This document shows, piece by piece, positions 17,994 through 58,339 of a DNA stretch of 64,000 bases. This stretch comes from Limnohabitans sp. INBF002 (GTDB lineage: Bacteria; Pseudomonadota; Gammaproteobacteria; Burkholderiales; Burkholderiaceae_C). A program made the translations under genes and the position numbers. The number at the start of each line of letters is the position of its first letter. The first letter of the stretch is position 1. The DNA lies in the NCBI RefSeq assembly GCF_027924905.1, contig NZ_AP027055.1, positions 744,001 to 808,000 on the forward strand, read 5' to 3'. Under the pieces are notes generated by a model. It saw nothing but the letters and a program-made list of their open reading frames with translations. It had not been told where the DNA came from and did no database searches.

Positions 17994-18683
17994 ATGGTTG
18001 ATTTGAAAGTTCTGCTGATCGAAGACGAAGCCAAGATTGCCGAGTTCGTCATCAAAGGCCTGTCAGCTGCTGGCTATGACGTGACGCACGTCGATGATGG
18101 TGAGCGCGGGTTGGCTGCGGTGCTTGCAGGTGCGCATGATCTGGTGATTTTGGATGTGATGCTGCCCAAGCTCAACGGGTTTGATGTGCTTCATCAAGTC
18201 AGAGAAGCAGGCCATGCAACGCCTGTGATCATTTTGAGCGCCAAAGTCGATTTGCCTGACCGTTTGATGGGGTTTGAGATGGGCGCCGATGACTATTTGC
18301 CCAAGCCGTTTTTCGTTGAGGAACTGGTGGCACGTATCAAGGCCGTGATGCAGCGCAAGATGCCGGAGCAAGTGCAGCAAATCGCAGTCAGTCATTTGAC
18401 GCTGGATGTGGTCAGCCACAAGGTGCAATGGTTTGGTGTGACCGCGGTGCTGAGCCAGCGTGAGTTCAGTTTGTTGGCGTTTTTGATGCGCTCACCGGGG
18501 CATATTTTTTCGCGACAACAAATTCTCAAACATGTCTGGGAGATCAACTTTGACCCAGAAACCAATGTGGTCGATGTGTGTGTGCGACGCATCAAGCGAA
18601 AGCTTGAACGAGGCAGCGGTGGGCATACGTCCCCGATTGAGTCTGTGCGTGGGGTGGGTTACCGATTGCGGGTCGAGGCATAA
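17994..18683 (+). CDS. OmpR/CusR-type response regulator (TCS-1)
   Basis: A 229-residue two-domain regulator: receiver domain with the acidic pocket IEDE (residues 9-12) and phospho-acceptor D54 in VILDVMLP, the conserved Lys in YLPKPFFVEEL near 101-111, then a winged-helix DNA-binding domain ending ESVRGVGYRL. An upstream in-frame ATG at 17970 exists, but the start at 17994 gives the same length as its paralogue at 56203-56892. The kinase gene follows after 3 nt. The paired palindromes upstream and a second pair before the TerB-like gene are probable targets. The family suggests metal or envelope/redox stress sensing. Confidence 0.9.
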   Translation: MVDLKVLLIEDEAKIAEFVIKGLSAAGYDVTHVDDGERGLAAVLAGAHDLVILDVMLPKLNGFDVLHQVREAGHATPVIILSAKVDLPDRLMGFEMGADDYLPKPFFVEELVARIKAVMQRKMPEQVQQIAVSHLTLDVVSHKVQWFGVTAVLSQREFSLLAFLMRSPGHIFSRQQILKHVWEINFDPETNVVDVCVRRIKRKLERGSGGHTSPIESVRGVGYRLRVEA

Positions 18684-18686
18684 GGC

Positions 18687-20072
18687 ATGAAAAGATCATT
18701 CAAGGCGCGTTTGTTCCTGCACGTGGTTTTGATCACCGTCGTGGTGATCTGGGCAAACCGTGTCATTGCTCAGTATTTTTTAACCGATCAGTTGCAGACG
18801 CGCATCCATCAAGAAATGGGCGTTGCATTGACCACTTGCGCAGACCATTTTGAAAACCACGATGCGTTTGTGAACTGTTTCAAGGCGATTGAAAAAGGCA
18901 GCTTGTTCAGCAATGCTTCAGATTTTTATGTCTTGTGTGACAGATCTAAAAGTACCGCCAAGTCAGGCGTCACGCCTGCGTGTCAACCGCTTTTGGCAAA
19001 TGATGATTTTTGGCAAAGTACGGCCGTGTCGAGTCATGGCGATTTGGTGCTGTCCCATGGTTGGGTGGGGGGGCAAGATTGGTATGCCGTTCGATTTAAA
19101 AACCGGGTGCAAGGGCCTGAGGTTTGGCTCGAGGGGGAACAGATTGATGTGCTGATGCAGCGCGTTTGGGCGCTGCGCGACCGTAACACCATCTATGTAT
19201 TGCCCACGATATTGGGCATGCTCTTGTTGCTCACGCTTTACTTGACCCATGTGATGATGCGTCCGATCACCTTGATTCAAAACAACATGTCAAAGCTGAC
19301 GGCGAGCACGCTGGATCAATTCATCGTGTTGCAGGCACCTTTCAAAGAGTTTGAAAAATTGGTGCAAGTGTTTGACGACTTACGAATTCGCTTGAATGAC
19401 AGCTTCACCAAAGCGCGCCGGTTTGCGGCGGATGCCTCGCACGAGCTGCGCACGCCCCTCACCATTTTGAGAGGCAACGTGGAGCGTTTGATTCACGATT
19501 TGCCCATGGGTTCAGATGCCCAAATTCGCATGCGAAGCATGAGCGATGAAGTCGAGCGCTTGATTGAAATTACCGAAAAACTTTTGCTGCTTTCGCGTGC
19601 AGATGCCAACAGCTTGAAGCAGGACTTGACGGATGTGAATTTGAGTGACTTGCTTGAACAATTGATCAAGGATGCGCATTCGTTTCAATCGAGTTTGAAA
19701 ATCACAGGTGCCATTACGCCGGGTGTGATTTGGCGTTGCGACAAAACCTTGATACGTCAGTTGGTTCAAAACTTGTATACCAATGCCGTGAACTACAACC
19801 GAGTGCCTGGATGGGTTCATTTCAGCCTGACGCAGTCACAAGGGCGTTTTCAGCTGATGGTTGAGAACCCCGCTGCAGGGATTCCTGAGGACCTAAGCGA
19901 TCGGGCGTTTGATCGCTTCTACCGAGGTGATGCGTCTCATGCGCGTCAAATTGATGGTTTGGGTTTGGGCTTGAGTATTTGCCTGGAAATTGCCAAGCTG
20001 CACAAAGCCACTTTGTCCTTGACGGCGACTGATAAGCAAACGGTCGTAGCGACTTTGTCTGCTCCTTTGTAG
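18687..20072 (+). CDS. Sensor histidine kinase (TCS-1)
   Basis: A 461-residue inner-membrane kinase. TM1 is at about residues 8-28, a periplasmic sensor domain at 30-168, TM2 at about 169-192, followed by a HAMP-like linker, the H-box ASHELRTPLTI (His252), an N-box LVQNLYTNAVNYN near 360 and the G-boxes including GLGLGLSICLEIAK. The sensor domain contains four cysteines (51, 64, 84, 99), which the paralogous kinase at 54.8-56.2 kb lacks; this points to a thiol-redox or soft-metal signal (inference). The gene is coupled to the regulator by a 3-nt gap. The ligand is unknown. Confidence 0.92.
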   Translation: MKRSFKARLFLHVVLITVVVIWANRVIAQYFLTDQLQTRIHQEMGVALTTCADHFENHDAFVNCFKAIEKGSLFSNASDFYVLCDRSKSTAKSGVTPACQPLLANDDFWQSTAVSSHGDLVLSHGWVGGQDWYAVRFKNRVQGPEVWLEGEQIDVLMQRVWALRDRNTIYVLPTILGMLLLLTLYLTHVMMRPITLIQNNMSKLTASTLDQFIVLQAPFKEFEKLVQVFDDLRIRLNDSFTKARRFAADASHELRTPLTILRGNVERLIHDLPMGSDAQIRMRSMSDEVERLIEITEKLLLLSRADANSLKQDLTDVNLSDLLEQLIKDAHSFQSSLKITGAITPGVIWRCDKTLIRQLVQNLYTNAVNYNRVPGWVHFSLTQSQGRFQLMVENPAAGIPEDLSDRAFDRFYRGDASHARQIDGLGLGLSICLEIAKLHKATLSLTATDKQTVVATLSAPL

Positions 20073-51609: not shown

Positions 51610-52079
51610 GCCAGCAGCTCCTGCCCGCGTGGGGTGAGGGCACTGATGCGCACTTGGCGTTGCTCGGCGTCGTCCACTTGGATGTCGAGTTCAAGGTCTG
51701 GCGTGGGCATCACGCCAGCGGCGTTTTGCGGCCATTCGCACAGCTTCAAGCCCGTGCTGGCAAAGATGTCACGAAAGCCAGCGTCTTCCCATTCGCGTGG
51801 GTCGCTGAAGCGGTAAAAGTCAAAATGCCACACCTCGCCCGCATCCACGGTGTAGGGTTCGACCACGGCATAGGTCGGGCTTTTGATGCGGCCCTCGACG
51901 CCCAAGGCGCGTAGCAGGTGGCGCACAAAGGTGGTTTTGCCTGCGCCCAAGTCGCCATGCAAGGCGATGCAAGCATTCAGGTTGGCGCGTGTCAATGCGG
52001 CGGCCAGCTGCGTGGCAAACGCAGCGGTGGCGGCTTCATCGGGCCAAACCAGAGTTTTTACAATGGGCGAATTGTTCAA
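51606..52079 (-). CDS. tsaE: tRNA t6A biosynthesis ATPase TsaE
   Basis: ATPase of the TsaBDE complex; works with TsaD (22 kb). The 157-residue protein has Walker A HGDLGAGKTTFVRHLL near residue 42, SPTYAVVEPY and WHFDFYRFSDP, all typical. There is no ATG near the start: the TTG at 52079, with GGA about 6 nt upstream, is the best choice, and the frame also opens from a TTG at 52121. It is divergent from queG, whose TTG start is only about 10 nt away. Confidence 0.9.
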   Translation of the reverse strand: MNNSPIVKTLVWPDEAATAAFATQLAAALTRANLNACIALHGDLGAGKTTFVRHLLRALGVEGRIKSPTYAVVEPYTVDAGEVWHFDFYRFSDPREWEDAGFRDIFASTGLKLCEWPQNAAGVMPTPDLELDIQVDDAEQRQVRISALTPRGQELLA

Positions 52080-52088
52080 AGGTATCCG

Positions 52089-53186
52089 TTGTCTATCGAT
52101 TACAAATTGTTGCTCACGCAAATTCAGGCTCTAGGGCAAACACTGGGATTTTCGCAAATTGCGGTGGCCCCTTTGGATTTGTCTTCCGCCGAGCCGCATT
52201 TGCAAAATTGGCTGGCCCAAAACTTCCACGGCAGCATGGACTATATGGCCCGCCACGGCCTCAAGCGCGCGCGTCCTGCCGAGCTGGTGCCGGGCACCTT
52301 GAGCGTGCTGACCGCCCGCATGAACTACCTGCCGCGCGACACCGCCGAGGGCTGGCAAGACGCCGAGTGGCAACGCTTGCGTAACCCTGCGGAGGCCGTG
52401 GTGTCGGTCTATGCCAGAGGGCGCGACTATCACAAGGTACTGCGCAACCGGCTCGACACGTTGGCCCAGCAAGTGGATGCCTTGTTGGTCGAGACGCTCA
52501 AGCCCCATGGTTTTGAATACCGCGCCTTCACCGATTCAGCCCCCGTGCTGGAGGCTGAGCTGGCCACACGCAGTGGCCAAGGCTGGCGCGGCAAACACAG
52601 CTTGGTGCTGAACCGCGAAGCGGGCTCGATGTTTTTCTTGGGCGAGATTTTTTTGAATGTGGCCTTGCCTGCATCTGAACCCACCAGTGCGCACTGTGGC
52701 CAATGCACCGCTTGCATGGATGTGTGCCCCACACAGGCCATCGTGGCCGAAGGCTTGGTGGATGCACGCCGTTGCATTTCGTATTTGACGATTGAGCACG
52801 ACGGCACCATCGACGAGGCGCTGCGCCCTTTGATGGGCAACCACATCTACGGCTGCGACGACTGCCAGCTGATATGCCCATGGAACAAGTTTGCGCAAGC
52901 GTCGAGCTTGCCCGATTTTGATGTGCGTGCAGGCTTGGTGGGGCAGGGCATGGCGCGACTCTTGGCGTGGACCGAGGATGAGTTTTTGCGTTACACCGAA
53001 GGCAGCCCCATACGTCGCATAGGCCATGTGCGCTGGCTGCGTAACCTCGCCGTGGCTGCGGGCAATGCGCTGCGGCAGGCGGACGACGCAGCTTTGCGCC
53101 AAGCACTACAGGCCCACCTCACTCACAGCAACGAGGTGGTGCGTGAGCATGTGCAGTGGGCCTTGGCGCAAAGTGCGCACGAGTAA
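52089..53186 (+). CDS. queG: Epoxyqueuosine reductase QueG
   Basis: Cobalamin- and Fe-S-dependent enzyme for the last step of queuosine synthesis in tRNA. The 365-residue protein has NWLAQNFHGSMDYMARH near residue 37, two ferredoxin-type motifs CGQCTACMDVCPTQAI and CDDCQLICPWNKFA, and C-terminal HEAT-like helices. The frame is open far upstream across tsaE, but no ATG or GTG fits; the TTG at 52089, preceded by AAAGG at 52078-52082, is chosen. queG beside tsaE is a conserved proteobacterial neighbourhood. Confidence 0.92.
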   Translation: MSIDYKLLLTQIQALGQTLGFSQIAVAPLDLSSAEPHLQNWLAQNFHGSMDYMARHGLKRARPAELVPGTLSVLTARMNYLPRDTAEGWQDAEWQRLRNPAEAVVSVYARGRDYHKVLRNRLDTLAQQVDALLVETLKPHGFEYRAFTDSAPVLEAELATRSGQGWRGKHSLVLNREAGSMFFLGEIFLNVALPASEPTSAHCGQCTACMDVCPTQAIVAEGLVDARRCISYLTIEHDGTIDEALRPLMGNHIYGCDDCQLICPWNKFAQASSLPDFDVRAGLVGQGMARLLAWTEDEFLRYTEGSPIRRIGHVRWLRNLAVAAGNALRQADDAALRQALQAHLTHSNEVVREHVQWALAQSAHE

Positions 53187-53195
53187 TATCAAGCG

Positions 53196-53537
53196 ATGAG
53201 ATTTTTCACCCGTTTGATATTTGCGCTGATTGGCATGGCGTTCGCCATTTTGTTTGCCATCGGTGTGTTGTGTTGGCTCGCCTTGTATGTGGTGTTTGCT
53301 TGTCTGCGTTGGTTGACCACAGGCCAAAAGCCACAAGTGCTGATGATGTGGCAACAAATTCAAGCGATGCGCAAAGGCATGCAGACGGGGCAGGGTGCAA
53401 GCTGGTCCAGCTGGTCTCGCTCCAGTGATGGGCAATGGCATGAGGCGCATGGACATGTCTCAAATGGTGATCACAAAGCGGATGTCATAGAAGACGCCGT
53501 GGTGCGCGAAATCCATGACAAGCGTCGCTTGCCCTAA
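53196..53537 (+). CDS. Hypothetical small membrane protein
   Basis: A 113-residue protein not recognised. Residues about 5-40 form one long or two short hydrophobic helices (LIFALIGMAFAILFAIGVLC, then WLALYVVFACLRWL), followed by a Gln/Ser/Trp/His-rich soluble part ending VVREIHDKRRLP. It starts 9 nt after queG and may be cotranscribed. Its last four codons fall inside the left copy of the 35-bp repeat that flanks the TCS-2 module, so its natural C-terminus may have been altered by that event. Confidence 0.7.
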   Translation: MRFFTRLIFALIGMAFAILFAIGVLCWLALYVVFACLRWLTTGQKPQVLMMWQQIQAMRKGMQTGQGASWSSWSRSSDGQWHEAHGHVSNGDHKADVIEDAVVREIHDKRRLP

Positions 53538-53560
53538 CTCAATCACCGCCAGCTCGTAGT
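53526..53560. repeat. Direct repeat, left copy (mltB 3'-end remnant)
   Basis: 35 nt identical at 33 positions to 57178-57212. Read on the minus strand it encodes YELAVIELGQA, the same peptide (YALAVIELGQA) as the C-terminal part of the intact mltB. It marks the left edge of the TCS-2 module. Confidence 0.85.
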
Positions 53561-53569
53561 TGTGTTTAA

Positions 53570-54415
53570 TTAGTCATCAAATAAAACTTTATCTTTGGAC
53601 GGTGCCATGACATTGATCAACAGCTCTTGGCTATCTGCTTTAAACGCCTCTTCAAAACGCCAAGTGAATTGGTTGGTCACGCGTTGTAGTAGGCGCTTGG
53701 GTACGCCGTATTGTGTTGGCACACGATAGCTGCCCTCAAAAATCGCAAGCCCATCCTCATCTTTGTAACCGCGAAAATGCAATGGTCTAATCAACGTTGA
53801 TGCGGCCATAACGAGGGTTTGCACATCACTGACCTCAATGGACTCTTTCGCCTTGGCGCGCGCGTACAGCTGAATCGCAGAACCCGACTTGTCGATCGTT
53901 GTGTGTAGCGGGTATGCCAACCCGTACATCGCCATCGAATCAATTTCGTCAGTGGCTGCATTGAGCTTGCTTTCAATGCCTTGCGAACGGAAAAACGTAA
54001 GCAGCACATCGGTAGAGATGTCCTCAGGCTTGTAAAACGACTTTTTGGTGTCGGCCACTTTGCTGCGTGTTTCTTCAATGATCTCAATGATGTGCATGGC
54101 CATCCGAGGTGCGTCATTGCGATGGACTTTGGCATCGGCCAACACAATCTGCAGGACTTTGATGACATCTTCAAACGCGTGCATTGAAATGCGAATGTCT
54201 GCAATGGCCGTTTGCACGATATCTTGTCGGTAATCCATATCCGGCTTGCGCATGATGTACGTCGCATAGGTCAGCTGATCCGCAACTATTTGCACCAGCG
54301 GCACCGAGAAAAAATAGTGCATCAATCCACGCTCTTGACGCACCCTTTCATAAAAAGAAGCAATGATTTTTTTTAGTCCTGTAGTACCGCCGTATTTTTG
54401 AACAAGGTCTTGCAT
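53570..54415 (-). CDS. Truncated-globin-like protein with an unknown C-terminal domain
   Basis: A 281-residue protein. Residues 1-115 align by eye with group I truncated hemoglobins: YGGTTGLKKIIASFYERV (including the B10-region Tyr) and RISMHAFEDVIKVL, which corresponds to the GITMHHF region of mycobacterial trHbN. At the position of the proximal heme-binding His there is Ile71, so classical heme binding is doubtful. Residues about 120-281 are an extra mixed alpha/beta domain I do not recognise. No signal peptide: cytoplasmic. It lies 9 nt after the Cys-repeat gene and is probably in its operon, next to TCS-2. Globin-fold sensors without heme are known, so a signalling role is conceivable (inference). 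Confidence 0.7.
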   Translation of the reverse strand: MQDLVQKYGGTTGLKKIIASFYERVRQERGLMHYFFSVPLVQIVADQLTYATYIMRKPDMDYRQDIVQTAIADIRISMHAFEDVIKVLQIVLADAKVHRNDAPRMAMHIIEIIEETRSKVADTKKSFYKPEDISTDVLLTFFRSQGIESKLNAATDEIDSMAMYGLAYPLHTTIDKSGSAIQLYARAKAKESIEVSDVQTLVMAASTLIRPLHFRGYKDEDGLAIFEGSYRVPTQYGVPKRLLQRVTNQFTWRFEEAFKADSQELLINVMAPSKDKVLFDD

Positions 54416-54424
54416 GTTCTTCTA

Positions 54425-54724
54425 TCAGCGCCACATAGCCAATCGTTGTTTGTCACGCACAGCCATCAAACACGATTGGCGTTTGATCGGACTGCTGATC
54501 TTGTCGCAACCATACGAGTTAGATGCCACCATAGCGCGGCAATAAAACACGCCATCTGATGATGAAATTTGATCGCAGATTACTGCATTCACCATGGTTG
54601 TCGCTGTGCAAAGGTATTGCTCGTCTTTGTTTCGTTTCATTTCGCAATCGCGCACAGACTCACAAAATCCGGCCTGCGACATGGCCAATAGCAATGAACC
54701 GGTGAATAGATGCCGCATCTTCAT
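54425..54724 (-). CDS. Small secreted protein with regular cysteine repeats
   Basis: A 99-residue protein with an N-terminal signal peptide (residues 1-19, MKMRHLFTGSLLLAMSQAG). Cysteines at 27, 39, 50, 62, 73 and 85 are spaced 12/11/12/11/12, giving three 23-residue units beginning C27, C50 and C73; two of them share a CDxISS start. An extra Cys21 lies at the start of the mature part but does not form a lipobox. A disulfide-stapled helical-repeat fold in the periplasm is inferred. A strong Shine-Dalgarno (AAAGGGG) precedes the ATG. A palindrome of the TCS-2 type lies about 80 nt upstream. No family is recognised. Confidence 0.75.
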   Translation of the reverse strand: MKMRHLFTGSLLLAMSQAGFCESVRDCEMKRNKDEQYLCTATTMVNAVICDQISSSDGVFYCRAMVASNSYGCDKISSPIKRQSCLMAVRDKQRLAMWR

Positions 54725-54804
54725 TTTTAAACCCCTTTGTTAAGGTTTAAAGGTACGGTTTTAGAGCTTGATGCGCTTCAATTCATTGCTGCATGTAATG
54801 GTTG

Positions 54805-54820
54805 ATAACAGCTTTGTAAT
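54805..54820. promoter_or_regulatory. Imperfect TTAC-N6-GTAA box upstream of the Cys-repeat gene
   Basis: ATAACAGCTTTGTAAT: the right half (GTAAT) and spacing equal the box before the TCS-2 regulator, the left half differs by one base (TAAC for TTAC). Another GTAATG half-site lies at 54795-54800. It sits in the promoter region of the Cys-repeat/globin-like operon, just after the kinase gene. Confidence 0.5.
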
Positions 54821-56206
54821 TTATGAACTCACTGAAATCTTGCCCTCAATGCGTACTTTTTTATCGGGCGTGACTTGTAAGTGAAGGTCACCGCCATGTG
54901 CCCTGACTATTTCTTTGCACAAACTCAACCCAAGACCCGAGCCCGCGATGACACCTCTGTCTTCACGCTGTACTTGGAGATGCCTGTAAAACCGCTCAAA
55001 GACACGGTCATCCAGGCCATCTAATGTGAGATTCGTTGTATTGCAGATCGAGAAATAAACTTGCTGACCCATCACGCGCGCTTGAAAGTCGATCGAGCCG
55101 TTTTTGTAGTTGTATTTGATGGCATTGCCGAAGAGGTTGTTCATCAATTGAAAAATAAAATCTCGATCTGCATTGATAAGAATAGTTCCTTCGATTTCCT
55201 TCTTTAAGATCAAGTCTGGTCTGTAACTTTTGATGTCATCCATCATTTGACCCACCAAATCGTTGAGGTTGACCTCTTCTTTCTCAAGTCCAATTTGCCC
55301 AGCGTCGGCTTGTGAGAGGAAAAGTAATTTGTTTGTAATCGAGATCAACCGCTCCACTTCCTCCGACTCCAAAGACAGCTCCATTTGTGTCGTTGAACCA
55401 TCGGGTGCGTGGTTAATCAATCGGTGCAAATGGCCGCGAATAATGGTGAGTGGCGTTCGTAACTCATGGGCTGCATCACTTGAAAATCGCGCAGCTTGCG
55501 TGTAATTGGCTCTCAGCCTGTCAGTCAACTCGTTGAAGTATTGAATGAATACGCCAAATTCTTTGAAATTGTCTTTGGTCTCTAAATGTTCGTGAGGGCT
55601 TGAAAACTTGATGTGTCCAAATGCGCTTTGCAAGTTCTTAATCGGTTTCAGCACGACATAAATAATGAATACCGTCGTCAGAACCACAAAAGCAATGAGG
55701 ATAGGCAACATTTTTATAGCGATTTGATTTCTCACTTCCAATATTTCACTGAGTGATTTTTGAAACGCTGCTGCATTAACGCCGATGTAGAGCTGCTGCG
55801 AATTCCGTAATACACGTACCACGCGCCAATTTTTTTGATCCCACTCCATGCTTGTGGTTTCGAAAGGTTTCGTATGCAAGGGCTCCCATTCAACCTGTTG
55901 AGAGGCCAAGCTACGCGCAAACTCTGCTACCTCAGTGCTTGGTTTGACGTTGTCGACAAATACAAGCATGTCTTTGGAATGAAGATGCAAGACCGTCTTT
56001 TCAAGATTCGCCTGAAACACGTTCAAATCGAGTTGTCCGGTGTTGGCATCCAACTCTTTTTGCACATGCTGAGCCAATACGTCACTGAAGTACATCCGGA
56101 ATGGCTCACCACTGGTCCACCTAACCACCACGCGAGATGCGACGACAACCGACACCACACAAAGGGTGACCGATAAAAAGACGTGTAACTTAAATGAGCG
56201 TCTCAT
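54821..56206 (-). CDS. Sensor histidine kinase (TCS-2)
   Basis: A 461-residue inner-membrane kinase, the same length as the TCS-1 kinase and with a similar opening (MRRSFKLHVFLSV versus MKRSFKARLFLHV). TM1 is at about 9-28, a periplasmic domain at 30-163 without cysteines, TM2 at about 164-187, the H-box DAAHELRTPLTIIRG with His247, an N-box LMNNLFGNAIKYN and a G-box GSGLGLSLCKEIVRAHGG. The ligand is unknown. The ATG overlaps the regulator stop by four nucleotides. Base composition by eye is more AT-rich than the flanking core genes. Confidence 0.92.
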   Translation of the reverse strand: MRRSFKLHVFLSVTLCVVSVVVASRVVVRWTSGEPFRMYFSDVLAQHVQKELDANTGQLDLNVFQANLEKTVLHLHSKDMLVFVDNVKPSTEVAEFARSLASQQVEWEPLHTKPFETTSMEWDQKNWRVVRVLRNSQQLYIGVNAAAFQKSLSEILEVRNQIAIKMLPILIAFVVLTTVFIIYVVLKPIKNLQSAFGHIKFSSPHEHLETKDNFKEFGVFIQYFNELTDRLRANYTQAARFSSDAAHELRTPLTIIRGHLHRLINHAPDGSTTQMELSLESEEVERLISITNKLLFLSQADAGQIGLEKEEVNLNDLVGQMMDDIKSYRPDLILKKEIEGTILINADRDFIFQLMNNLFGNAIKYNYKNGSIDFQARVMGQQVYFSICNTTNLTLDGLDDRVFERFYRHLQVQREDRGVIAGSGLGLSLCKEIVRAHGGDLHLQVTPDKKVRIEGKISVSS

Positions 56207-56892
56207 GGCGATACGTTATTGAATCGGTAGCCCACGCCACGAATGGTCTCTAAGGGAAAGGCTTGCAAAGCATCTGGGCGGGCGTCGTCCAATTTGCGGC
56301 GGAGTCGTTGAATGCAGACATCGACCACGTTCGTGCCTGGATCAAAATCGACATTCCATACTTGTTTGAGGATTTGCTGCCTAGAAAAAATTTGTCCTGG
56401 TGACAACATCATGCACTCCAGCAACACAAATTCGCGTTGTGTGAGGGGGGCCGCATGCTCGCCCCATTGTGCGACACGTGAAAATCGATTCAGGGTTAAG
56501 CCACTTTGCGAAATGAAGGCATGTGCGCTGCCCGACTGTCTTGCAATCAAAGTTTTGACACGCACAATCAATTCCTCAATGAAAAAGGGTTTGGCCAAGT
56601 AATCGTCAGCACCTTTTTCAAAACCTTTCAGGCGATCTATCAGTTCGGTGCGTGCGGTCAGCATCATGATGGGCGTTTTTAAACCTTTGCGTCTAATTTC
56701 GCCCAGCACCTCAAACCCGTCCATCAACGGCATAGAGACGTCCAGGACGATGGCATCAAATTTTTTTATCAGGGCCGTGTTCAGCCCCCTGAAGCCATCT
56801 GAATCGTGATGGACTGTAAAACCCTCTGACTCGAAACCCGAAATGATGAAATCAGCGATATTTTTCTCATCTTCAATCAACAAAATATTCAT
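56203..56892 (-). CDS. OmpR/CusR-type response regulator (TCS-2)
   Basis: A 229-residue regulator, same length as its TCS-1 paralogue. The receiver domain has IEDE (residues 6-9), D51 in IVLDVSMP, and the Lys in YLAKPFFIEEL near 98-108; the winged-helix domain ends ETIRGVGYRFNNV. The ATG at 56892 gives MNILLIEDEKNIADF; the longer frame (to 56976) adds a non-conserved leader and overlaps the operator. A perfect palindrome with 7-bp arms lies 40 nt upstream, so autoregulation is likely. Confidence 0.92.
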   Translation of the reverse strand: MNILLIEDEKNIADFIISGFESEGFTVHHDSDGFRGLNTALIKKFDAIVLDVSMPLMDGFEVLGEIRRKGLKTPIMMLTARTELIDRLKGFEKGADDYLAKPFFIEELIVRVKTLIARQSGSAHAFISQSGLTLNRFSRVAQWGEHAAPLTQREFVLLECMMLSPGQIFSRQQILKQVWNVDFDPGTNVVDVCIQRLRRKLDDARPDALQAFPLETIRGVGYRFNNVSP

Positions 56893-56931
56893 GATTTGAT
56901 TTTGACGCGCAATGCGAAAACTTTGCTGTAA

Positions 56932-56947
56932 ATTACAACTTTGTAAT
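56932..56947. promoter_or_regulatory. Perfect palindrome ATTACAA-CT-TTGTAAT upstream of the TCS-2 regulator
   Basis: Arms 56932-56938 and 56941-56947, 2-nt spacer; equivalently TTAC-N6-GTAA. Same half-site spacing as the four TGAC-N6-GTCA boxes of TCS-1, one base different per half-site. It resembles the class of boxes bound by CusR/HprR-type regulators (from memory). The site is 40 nt upstream of the regulator ATG. Confidence 0.65.
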
Positions 56948-57129
56948 CGCCATTGACGTGTTTCATTCAGGGGCACTTAACAGGCTCTAGCTCGTTCGGA
57001 TGTGTTGTGACGCTTTGCACGTCGCCCTCTCATAAGCGTCAAGGGCCAGATGAAATCCCTAGGCCGTTACTTAGAGGACCTCGATAACAAGCTTGGAGAC
57101 CAACTTTAAGACGATGTGCTCAATACAGT

Positions 57130-58242
57130 TCAACGTGAACTCGACTGGTAAGCCGTCAAAGCACGATTCGCTTTCACCGCTTGCCCCAACTCAATCACCG
57201 CCAGCGCGTAGTAGCTGCTCCAGTTGTAGCGTGTCACCACATAAAAGTTGTCGGTGCCCGCCACATAGCTGGGTGGCTCGTCACCATTGAACAACTCCAC
57301 CAAGGCTAAAGAGCCGTTGTGCTTTTGCGCTTGTTCGTCTAGCACCGCGCCTTTGGCGGTGAAGTTGCTCACGCTGAACGAGGGCAAGATGTCGGGGGCC
57401 AGCAAGGTGGGTTTGTCCAAACGCGCTTCATCAAAGCTCACGGGGTAGTGTGTGGGCATACCGGTTTGCCAGCCAAAGGCTTTGAAGTAATTGGCCACCG
57501 AGCCAATCGCGTCCACTGGGCTGTTGCGCAAATCAATGCGGCCATCGCCATCAAAGTCCACTGCAAACTTGGCCGCGCTGGAGGGCATGAACTGTGGCCA
57601 GCCCATGGCGCCCGCAAAGCTGCCGGTGATGCTGGCGTCGCCTTGGTGGTGGGCTTGCACCAAGAAGTGGCCCAGCTCAGATTTGAAGAAGGCTTGGCGT
57701 TCAACTGCGCGTGGGTGTGCGGCGGGGAAGTTGAGCGTGAGTGTGGTCAAGGCATCGAGCACGCGGTAGTTGCCCATGTTTTGGCCGTAGAAGGTTTCTA
57801 CACCGATGATGCCCACAATCATTTCGGCAGGCACGCCATAGGTTTGCTCCGCACGGGCGAGGTCGCTTTGGTAGGTTTGCCAAAACTGGGTGCCCGCATC
57901 AATGCGGCGGCTTTCAATGAAGCGCTCGCGATACGCACGCCAGTTCTTGGCGGTGGGCACGGTGGGCGGCAGCACCATCTTGGGCACGCCCTTTAAAAAC
58001 TGTGCTTTGCTGATTTGCTCACGCACCCAAGCTTTGGGTAGCTTGTGCTGTTGGGCCAGCTCATCGGCCAGTGCGATGGCTTCTGTGGTTTTCCCGTAGA
58101 CAGGGCCGCGTGTGGAGGCTTTATGAGCAACGGTTTTGTGAGCTTTCGCATGCGACTTGGCTGTTGCCTCGCCTGCAAATGCAGCCATTAGCAACAACAC
58201 GGCGGTGATTTGACGTAACGCAAGAGTTGGCTGCAAAGCCAT
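57130..58242 (-). CDS. mltB: Lytic murein transglycosylase B (MltB family)
   Basis: Cleaves the MurNAc-GlcNAc bond of peptidoglycan with formation of 1,6-anhydro ends. The 370-residue protein starts with a signal peptide (ITAVLLLMAAFAGEATA), then a Lys/His/Ala-rich stretch; the SLT-type catalytic Glu is in IGVETFYGQNMGNYRVLDAL near residue 150, and GSFAGAMGWPQFMPSS and DFDGDGRIDL are typical. It is probably not a lipoprotein (no lipobox). The frame opens from a GTG at 58269, but the ATG at 58242 gives a better signal peptide. The last 15 codons lie beyond the 35-bp repeat and may have been supplied by the TCS-2 module. Confidence 0.93.
   Translation of the reverse strand: MALQPTLALRQITAVLLLMAAFAGEATAKSHAKAHKTVAHKASTRGPVYGKTTEAIALADELAQQHKLPKAWVREQISKAQFLKGVPKMVLPPTVPTAKNWRAYRERFIESRRIDAGTQFWQTYQSDLARAEQTYGVPAEMIVGIIGVETFYGQNMGNYRVLDALTTLTLNFPAAHPRAVERQAFFKSELGHFLVQAHHQGDASITGSFAGAMGWPQFMPSSAAKFAVDFDGDGRIDLRNSPVDAIGSVANYFKAFGWQTGMPTHYPVSFDEARLDKPTLLAPDILPSFSVSNFTAKGAVLDEQAQKHNGSLALVELFNGDEPPSYVAGTDNFYVVTRYNWSSYYALAVIELGQAVKANRALTAYQSSSR
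57178..57212. repeat. Direct repeat, right copy (inside mltB)
   Basis: Partner of 53526-53560 (33/35 identical, same orientation). It lies in the mltB coding region near the 3' end and encodes YALAVIELGQA. It marks the right edge of the 3.65-kb TCS-2 module. Confidence 0.85.
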
Positions 58243-58339
58243 ATAAAACGGGGATGTATGTGTTTTCACGCAGTGTTTGCAAGGGAAAAAGCAAGGTCAC
58301 CATGGTAAGCTGACTTGAAGAAGAACCGAGGCAGACGAG

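Follow-up and report, generated by a model that had tools for sequence, protein, structure and literature searches.

In the type VI secretion system (T6SS) effector genes of Vibrio cholerae, sequential displacement of genes has been described and homology-facilitated illegitimate recombination (HFIR) has been proposed (PMC5361080). HFIR combines homologous recombination at one end of the incoming DNA with an illegitimate join at the other, in two further sources (PMC3240628, PMC2884548), and hotspots lacking integrases have been described as being exchanged by homologous recombination in the flanking core genes (PMC5635113). Here we consider the interval between queG and mltB in Limnohabitans sp. 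INBF002, where a four-gene two-component module lies against the 3′ end of mltB between two short direct repeats. The stretch analysed, hereafter the window, covers 64 kb (positions 744001–808000) of one 2.59-Mb contig. As in the sequential displacement of V. cholerae T6SS effector genes and the C-terminal displacement of Rhs genes, cargo would arrive joined to a conserved region, older genes would be pushed outward and orphan remnants would stay behind. Unlike in those systems, the gene concerned is a housekeeping lytic transglycosylase, the exchanged tail measures only about 15–25 codons, and the cargo consists of unrelated functions rather than toxin–immunity pairs. Displacement has precedents in Rhs and T6SS genes, and its occurrence at a housekeeping gene is a variant. 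The locus also resembles the integrase-less hotspots in its fixed core flanks, rapid gene turnover and lack of detected mobility genes; unlike there, displaced core-gene tails remain as visible scars at the boundaries. The likeness to HFIR, a homologous end plus an illegitimate end, is read from these genome scars. In the portions available of the literature on Limnohabitans genomic islands, gene transfer and genome evolution, we found nothing on the queG–mltB locus.

Two segments of the window, 53526–53560 and 57178–57212, are identical at 33 of 35 nucleotides (nt), lie in the same orientation 3652 nt apart and were correctly reported in a preliminary description made from the sequence alone. 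A whole-window search (seed 14) found no other direct repeat of at least 30 nt in the 64 kb, which rules out a chance origin. The boundary features are:

51918..53186, plus strand: queG (epoxyqueuosine reductase), left core flank of the hotspot (Pfam QueG_DUF1730, 6.1e-20; Fer4_16, 2.4e-23)
53196..53537, plus strand: conserved gene of 113 amino acids (aa), its end rewritten by the repeat copy (DKRRLP* versus DKPSLPKD* or similar in relatives)
53526..53560, minus strand: left repeat, a displaced mltB 3′ tail fused to the 113-aa gene (nhmmer E 3.6e-6)
57178..57212, minus strand: right repeat copy, within mltB
57130..58269, minus strand: mltB (lytic transglycosylase), right core flank, intact, with a clade-typical tail (SLT_2, E 6.6e-82)

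The right copy lies within an intact mltB, as had been claimed. The left copy was said to lie outside mltB and to encode the same peptide; read on the strand of mltB it does give YELAVIELGQA, but it overlaps the final codons and stop of the plus-strand 113-aa gene, and its first 8–9 nt (CGCTTGCCC), which resemble the native end of that gene in relatives (G042 AGCTTGCCC, G058 AGTTTGCCC; aligned by eye), are likely the gene's own, so that the mltB-derived part is nearer 26–30 nt. The window's 113-aa gene ends in DKRRLP* because the repeat copy supplies its stop codon, which is made by a C-to-T difference between the left and right copies. The enclosed DNA holds what had been listed, namely a globin-like gene, a Cys-rich gene, a kinase, a regulator and 237 nt of non-coding DNA ahead of mltB. 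Its guanine-plus-cytosine (GC) content deviates, as anticipated, being 0.43–0.50 in 500-nt bins from 53.5 to 57.0 kb versus 0.54–0.62 in the bins at 51.0–53.5 and 57.0–60.0 kb.

Displaced pieces of mltB recur in other genomes. We sought them with a profile built from 50 mltB tails (that of G042 by blastn, that of G011 by tblastn), taking as denominator those 48 of the 50 mltB loci whose 3′ flank extends for 1 kb or more. Five of the 48 loci carry such pieces (the window's own, G000, as well as G042, G023, G073, twice, and G011), all in the orientation of mltB; given the non-uniform detection methods, this count is a lower bound and not a rate. Beyond mltB itself, the tail profile matched in the window (E 3.6e-6), in G073 (9.4e-12 and 0.0068), in G023 (5.8e-8) and, at an ectopic position, in G003 (3e-15). 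Matches at E 0.9 or worse were left uncounted save for G042, which rests on blastn (65 nt, 89%). G023 is the clearest case of a displaced tail: other cargo lies between its mltB-tail copies, its two alignments with G063 share 57 nt of that tail, and the outer piece retains the start of the hydrolase that directly follows mltB in G063. In G042, 235-nt repeats of 86% identity, made up of the end of the 113-aa gene plus the mltB tail, bracket a hydrolase. One G073 remnant adjoins DUF2389, the neighbour of mltB in G011 and G079, and the other adjoins a decayed 113-aa gene, the neighbour of mltB in G057; in these alignments the two look as in successive displacements. A G091-like donor was considered for the 379-aa gene of G073 and rejected, its 89.5% nucleotide identity being insufficiently distinct from the 84–85% of queG and mltB.

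The copies differ in length (35 nt in the window, 57 nt in G023, 235 nt in G042), and their break points, located by eye, range from YNW to IELGQ, spread over about 15 codons. In G011 (L033:5849-5992), 67 nt of internal mltB run straight into the end of a DUF2389 gene, which by its sequence appears to be the relic of an old mltB–DUF2389 junction. At an unrelated locus of G003 (L035:2576-2885), a DUF2389 gene is accompanied by some 60 nt of mltB tail, which looks like a copy of the block at a new position.

Tails of queG (29) and hdac (24), used as controls, gave no additional match at E < 0.01, the best being 0.012. An ungapped self-repeat test of gene tails reached a score of at least 18 in 3 of 45 mltB open reading frames (ORFs; window, G042 and G073) versus 1 of 319 other ORFs (Fisher p 0.0065), and that single non-mltB case is an adjacent tandem.

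The empty site is seen when relatives are aligned. G057, G058 and G055 keep an uninterrupted order of queG, 113-aa gene and mltB with a single copy of the tail, which is the junction predicted beforehand. The claim that the module entered at the 3′ end of mltB is likewise supported. The stops of the 113-aa gene and mltB are 11, 9 and 34 nt apart in G057, G058 and G055, whose MltB proteins are 95%, 89% and 84% identical to that of the window. G041, the closest relative by mltB (96%), is without the 113-aa gene and has 2.9 kb of different cargo at the site. No match to the module's 281-aa protein was found in G041, G057, G042 or G058. The VKANRAL..QSSAR-type mltB tail of the window also occurs in the module-free G057 and G058, with a close variant in G042; therefore, the last 15 codons of mltB need not be module-derived, and the earlier suggestion that they are is unsupported. 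A donor of the same clade is conceivable.

Genome comparison further shows the queG–mltB interval to be a hotspot of gene turnover in Limnohabitans. queG is present in 79 of 84 genomes of the genus, and the intervals surveyed in 20 other genomes hold, in addition to further genes, a bicarbonate transporter, a molybdopterin enzyme, a membrane transporter, Fic and M20 proteins, an autotransporter-like protein, an acyltransferase, an alkaline phosphatase, a porin or next to nothing; one contains an 11-kb segment with ABC transporter and TauD genes. Among 38 ORFs of at least 90 aa in these 20 intervals, some of which may not be real genes, 7 are the 113-aa gene. We scanned the remaining 31 with Pfam, adding a DUF2389 protein and two from the G023 locus, and none of these 34 proteins matched an integrase or transposase. 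Nor is there an integrase gene between the repeats of the window, as the preliminary description had observed.

To insertion at an attachment (att) site we prefer, with reasonable though far from full confidence, a recombination in which mltB serves as the anchor, the opposite end is joined illegitimately and the old tail is displaced. Incoming DNA would carry accessory genes beside an mltB 3′ end and pair with the resident mltB as a homologous anchor, and its other end would join illegitimately within the resident mltB tail. The new cargo would thereby come to abut an entire mltB end, with the former tail shifted outward as a short direct repeat. A later deletion of about 75–77 nt between short GCTTGCCC-like repeats may have trimmed the displaced tail of the window and fused it to the 113-aa gene; TGCCC repeats 75–77 nt apart span the native junction in G057, G058 and G042. 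Natural transformation would be the likeliest route of uptake, the ComEC and DprA families being represented by open frames of 841 and 412 aa, and the order of events is likewise our reconstruction. A homologous anchor and a non-homologous junction are both found: mltB is intact, and the left junction joins an mltB tail to unrelated cargo. Displaced ends that keep a former neighbour are found in G023 (against G063), G073 and G042; in the window that neighbour is the 113-aa gene, given the putative secondary deletion. The variable copy lengths and break points, along with the absence of any recombinase found in the intervals, fit such mltB-anchored recombination.

The preliminary description had proposed, as one of two options, an att-site origin, which is not supported. 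A recombinase, whether it acts in trans or has been lost, would then have used the mltB 3′ end as its attB, and the repeats would be attL and attR. It is true that the insertions cluster within one short stretch (YNWSSYYALAVIELGQA) at the 3′ end of mltB and have direct repeats, that the mltB tails are restored and that the displaced pieces found share the orientation of the gene; among the matches listed in a genus-wide scan, 83 of 84 genomes have some match to PF00589, and an integrase may act in trans. However, none of the 34 interval proteins is a candidate, the copies share no common crossover core in view of their different lengths and scattered break points, and the cargo consists of ordinary metabolic or regulatory genes. 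We regard site-specific integration as unlikely.

Local duplication, by template switching or repair slippage, could instead have copied about 30 nt of mltB past an insert that entered otherwise. Short homologies at the left junction (GCTTGCCC) agree with this, and a single event would be enough for the window alone; it leaves unexplained why the tails of G023, G073 and G042 keep the neighbour that adjoins mltB in relatives, and we give this explanation a low probability. That the module is ancestral at mltB and was repeatedly lost through recombination between the repeats is very improbable: direct repeats can delete intervening DNA and module genes are present in several species, but G095, G094, G055 and G011 hold them away from mltB, the GC content of the module differs, and the empty-site relatives keep a spacer and tail missing at the window's left side that inter-repeat deletion would not restore.

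Several observations weigh against mltB-anchored recombination. The stricter ungapped test recovers three of the five genomes and misses G023 and G011. G023 and G073 are draft assemblies whose contamination is estimated at 6–7%, against 1% in G042, which is 100% complete. The match behind the second G073 remnant has an E of 0.0068, and with the tail profile the G042 copy reaches only E 0.92. No donor strain was found, and the left copy is so short that it can be neither dated nor assigned to donor or recipient. Save for the fast-evolving last ~50 nt, mltB has no clear recombination tract against G041 or G057, and natural competence is deduced from two genes only. At the module's other sites (G094, G011, G095), we did not find displaced gene tails, just weak repeats of 22–30 nt at 70–77% identity.

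The module itself comprises the following features:

53570..54415, minus strand: 281-aa protein with a truncated-globin-like domain (about residues 2–112) and a YbjN-like domain (about 125–269); the proximal-His position is I71
54425..54724, minus strand: 99-aa Cys-rich protein with a signal-like N-terminus (by eye), presumed periplasmic
54805..54820: degenerate regulator box with 2 mismatches, 80 nt ahead of the Cys-rich gene
54821..56206, minus strand: sensor histidine kinase, closest NCBIfam model cztS_silS_copS (below cut-off)
56203..56892, minus strand: OmpR-type response regulator, closest NCBIfam model cztR_silR_copR (below cut-off)
56932..56947: perfect palindrome ATTACAA-N2-TTGTAAT, about 40 nt ahead of the regulator gene, matching the E. 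coli CusR/HprR box
56949..57129: 181 nt between the mltB stop and the conserved module, whose alignment with G095 extends to 56948

All four reading frames are open, and G095, G094 and G011 carry the same genes as a unit; the label of a decayed element, entertained earlier, is unneeded. Module genes occur in G095, G094, G055 and G011 at loci other than mltB. The expectation that the module would be found at other sites in other species held, and the interpretation given in the preliminary description is, overall, partly supported. The identity of the module is incongruent with that of core genes, the globin being 84% identical to G095 versus 68% to G055, and queG 86% versus 91%, which counts in favour of the exchange model. 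In G055 (L139:1880-3164), the Cys-rich and globin–YbjN genes stand without an adjacent kinase or regulator, and a degenerate regulator box is kept about 80 nt upstream of them. The hotspot of G023 holds, in reverse orientation (L037:14182-14682), a 166-aa protein of repeated QCGFIRD..C units that distantly resembles the module's Cys-rich protein. Searches of plasmids, phages and viral contigs gave no match to the 281-aa protein or its alignment, and PADLOC gave no defence match for the two module proteins scanned.

CusR-type systems are linked to the Cus efflux system, and the genes linked to the regulator and kinase of the module differ: they encode a Cys-rich protein and a globin–YbjN fusion in place of Cus efflux proteins or MsrPQ. 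Unlike in CusR/HprR systems, neither protein passes its NCBIfam subfamily model (regulator, 208.1 bits versus a cut-off of 279.2; kinase, 167.3 versus 292.55). Like them, regulator and kinase are nearest to heavy-metal subfamilies, and the operator matches CATTACAAAATTGTAATG, the E. coli CusR/HprR box (PMC9302797). TTACAA-N2-TTGTAA occurs with 0 mismatches at 56932 and ahead of the regulator in the modules of G095, G094 and G011, and both boxes, before the regulator and before the Cys-rich gene, are conserved at the module's other sites. Genome-wide, the pattern gave 3 sites at up to 2 mismatches versus 4 for a reversed-pattern control; therefore, the box is informative by position and conservation only, and a genome-wide regulon from the pattern alone was dropped. 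A paralogous two-component system at 18003–20045 of the window (regulator 50%, kinase 31% identical) has no palindrome match at up to 2 mismatches. The cargo would be a self-contained two-component regulon in which a CusR/HprR-like regulator binds the palindrome before its own operon and, more weakly, the box before the Cys-rich and globin–YbjN pair. Such a regulon may respond to periplasmic copper or oxidant stress.

The 281-aa protein is a predicted truncated globin, putatively haem-less, fused to a YbjN-like domain. As in group-1 truncated haemoglobins and YbjN/AmyR, its N-terminus has the sequence profile and predicted fold of a truncated globin and its C-terminus the predicted fold of YbjN; unlike in haem-binding truncated haemoglobins, the proximal His (position 71) is absent from all 25 aligned sequences, eight of which have a His at 79. 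No NCBIfam model matched, Pfam gave just a sub-threshold Bac_globin, and our literature search found no paper joining YbjN with a globin domain. Similar globin–YbjN-like domains lie at the C-terminus of proteins of about 600 aa (L144:3167-4963 and L145:6338-8122), whose N-terminal part is long and coiled-coil-looking.

More tentatively, we suggest that the 3′ end of Limnohabitans mltB may be an integrase-independent docking site that grows in layers, every incoming cargo bringing an mltB tail of its own and shifting earlier tails and cargo outward, with displaced tails recording the order of insertion, and that one of its cargoes may be a nomadic copper/oxidant-type two-component regulon with a haem-less globin–YbjN output. 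For a large proportion of hotspots, the way in which accessory genes enter chromosomes without integrases has yet to be explained (PMC5635113). Short displaced tails of a conserved gene are sequence scars; they lend themselves to searching, counting and ordering, so that the mechanism becomes testable from genomes alone. The module, in turn, gives a regulator-linked context for a globin–YbjN protein without an NCBIfam match.

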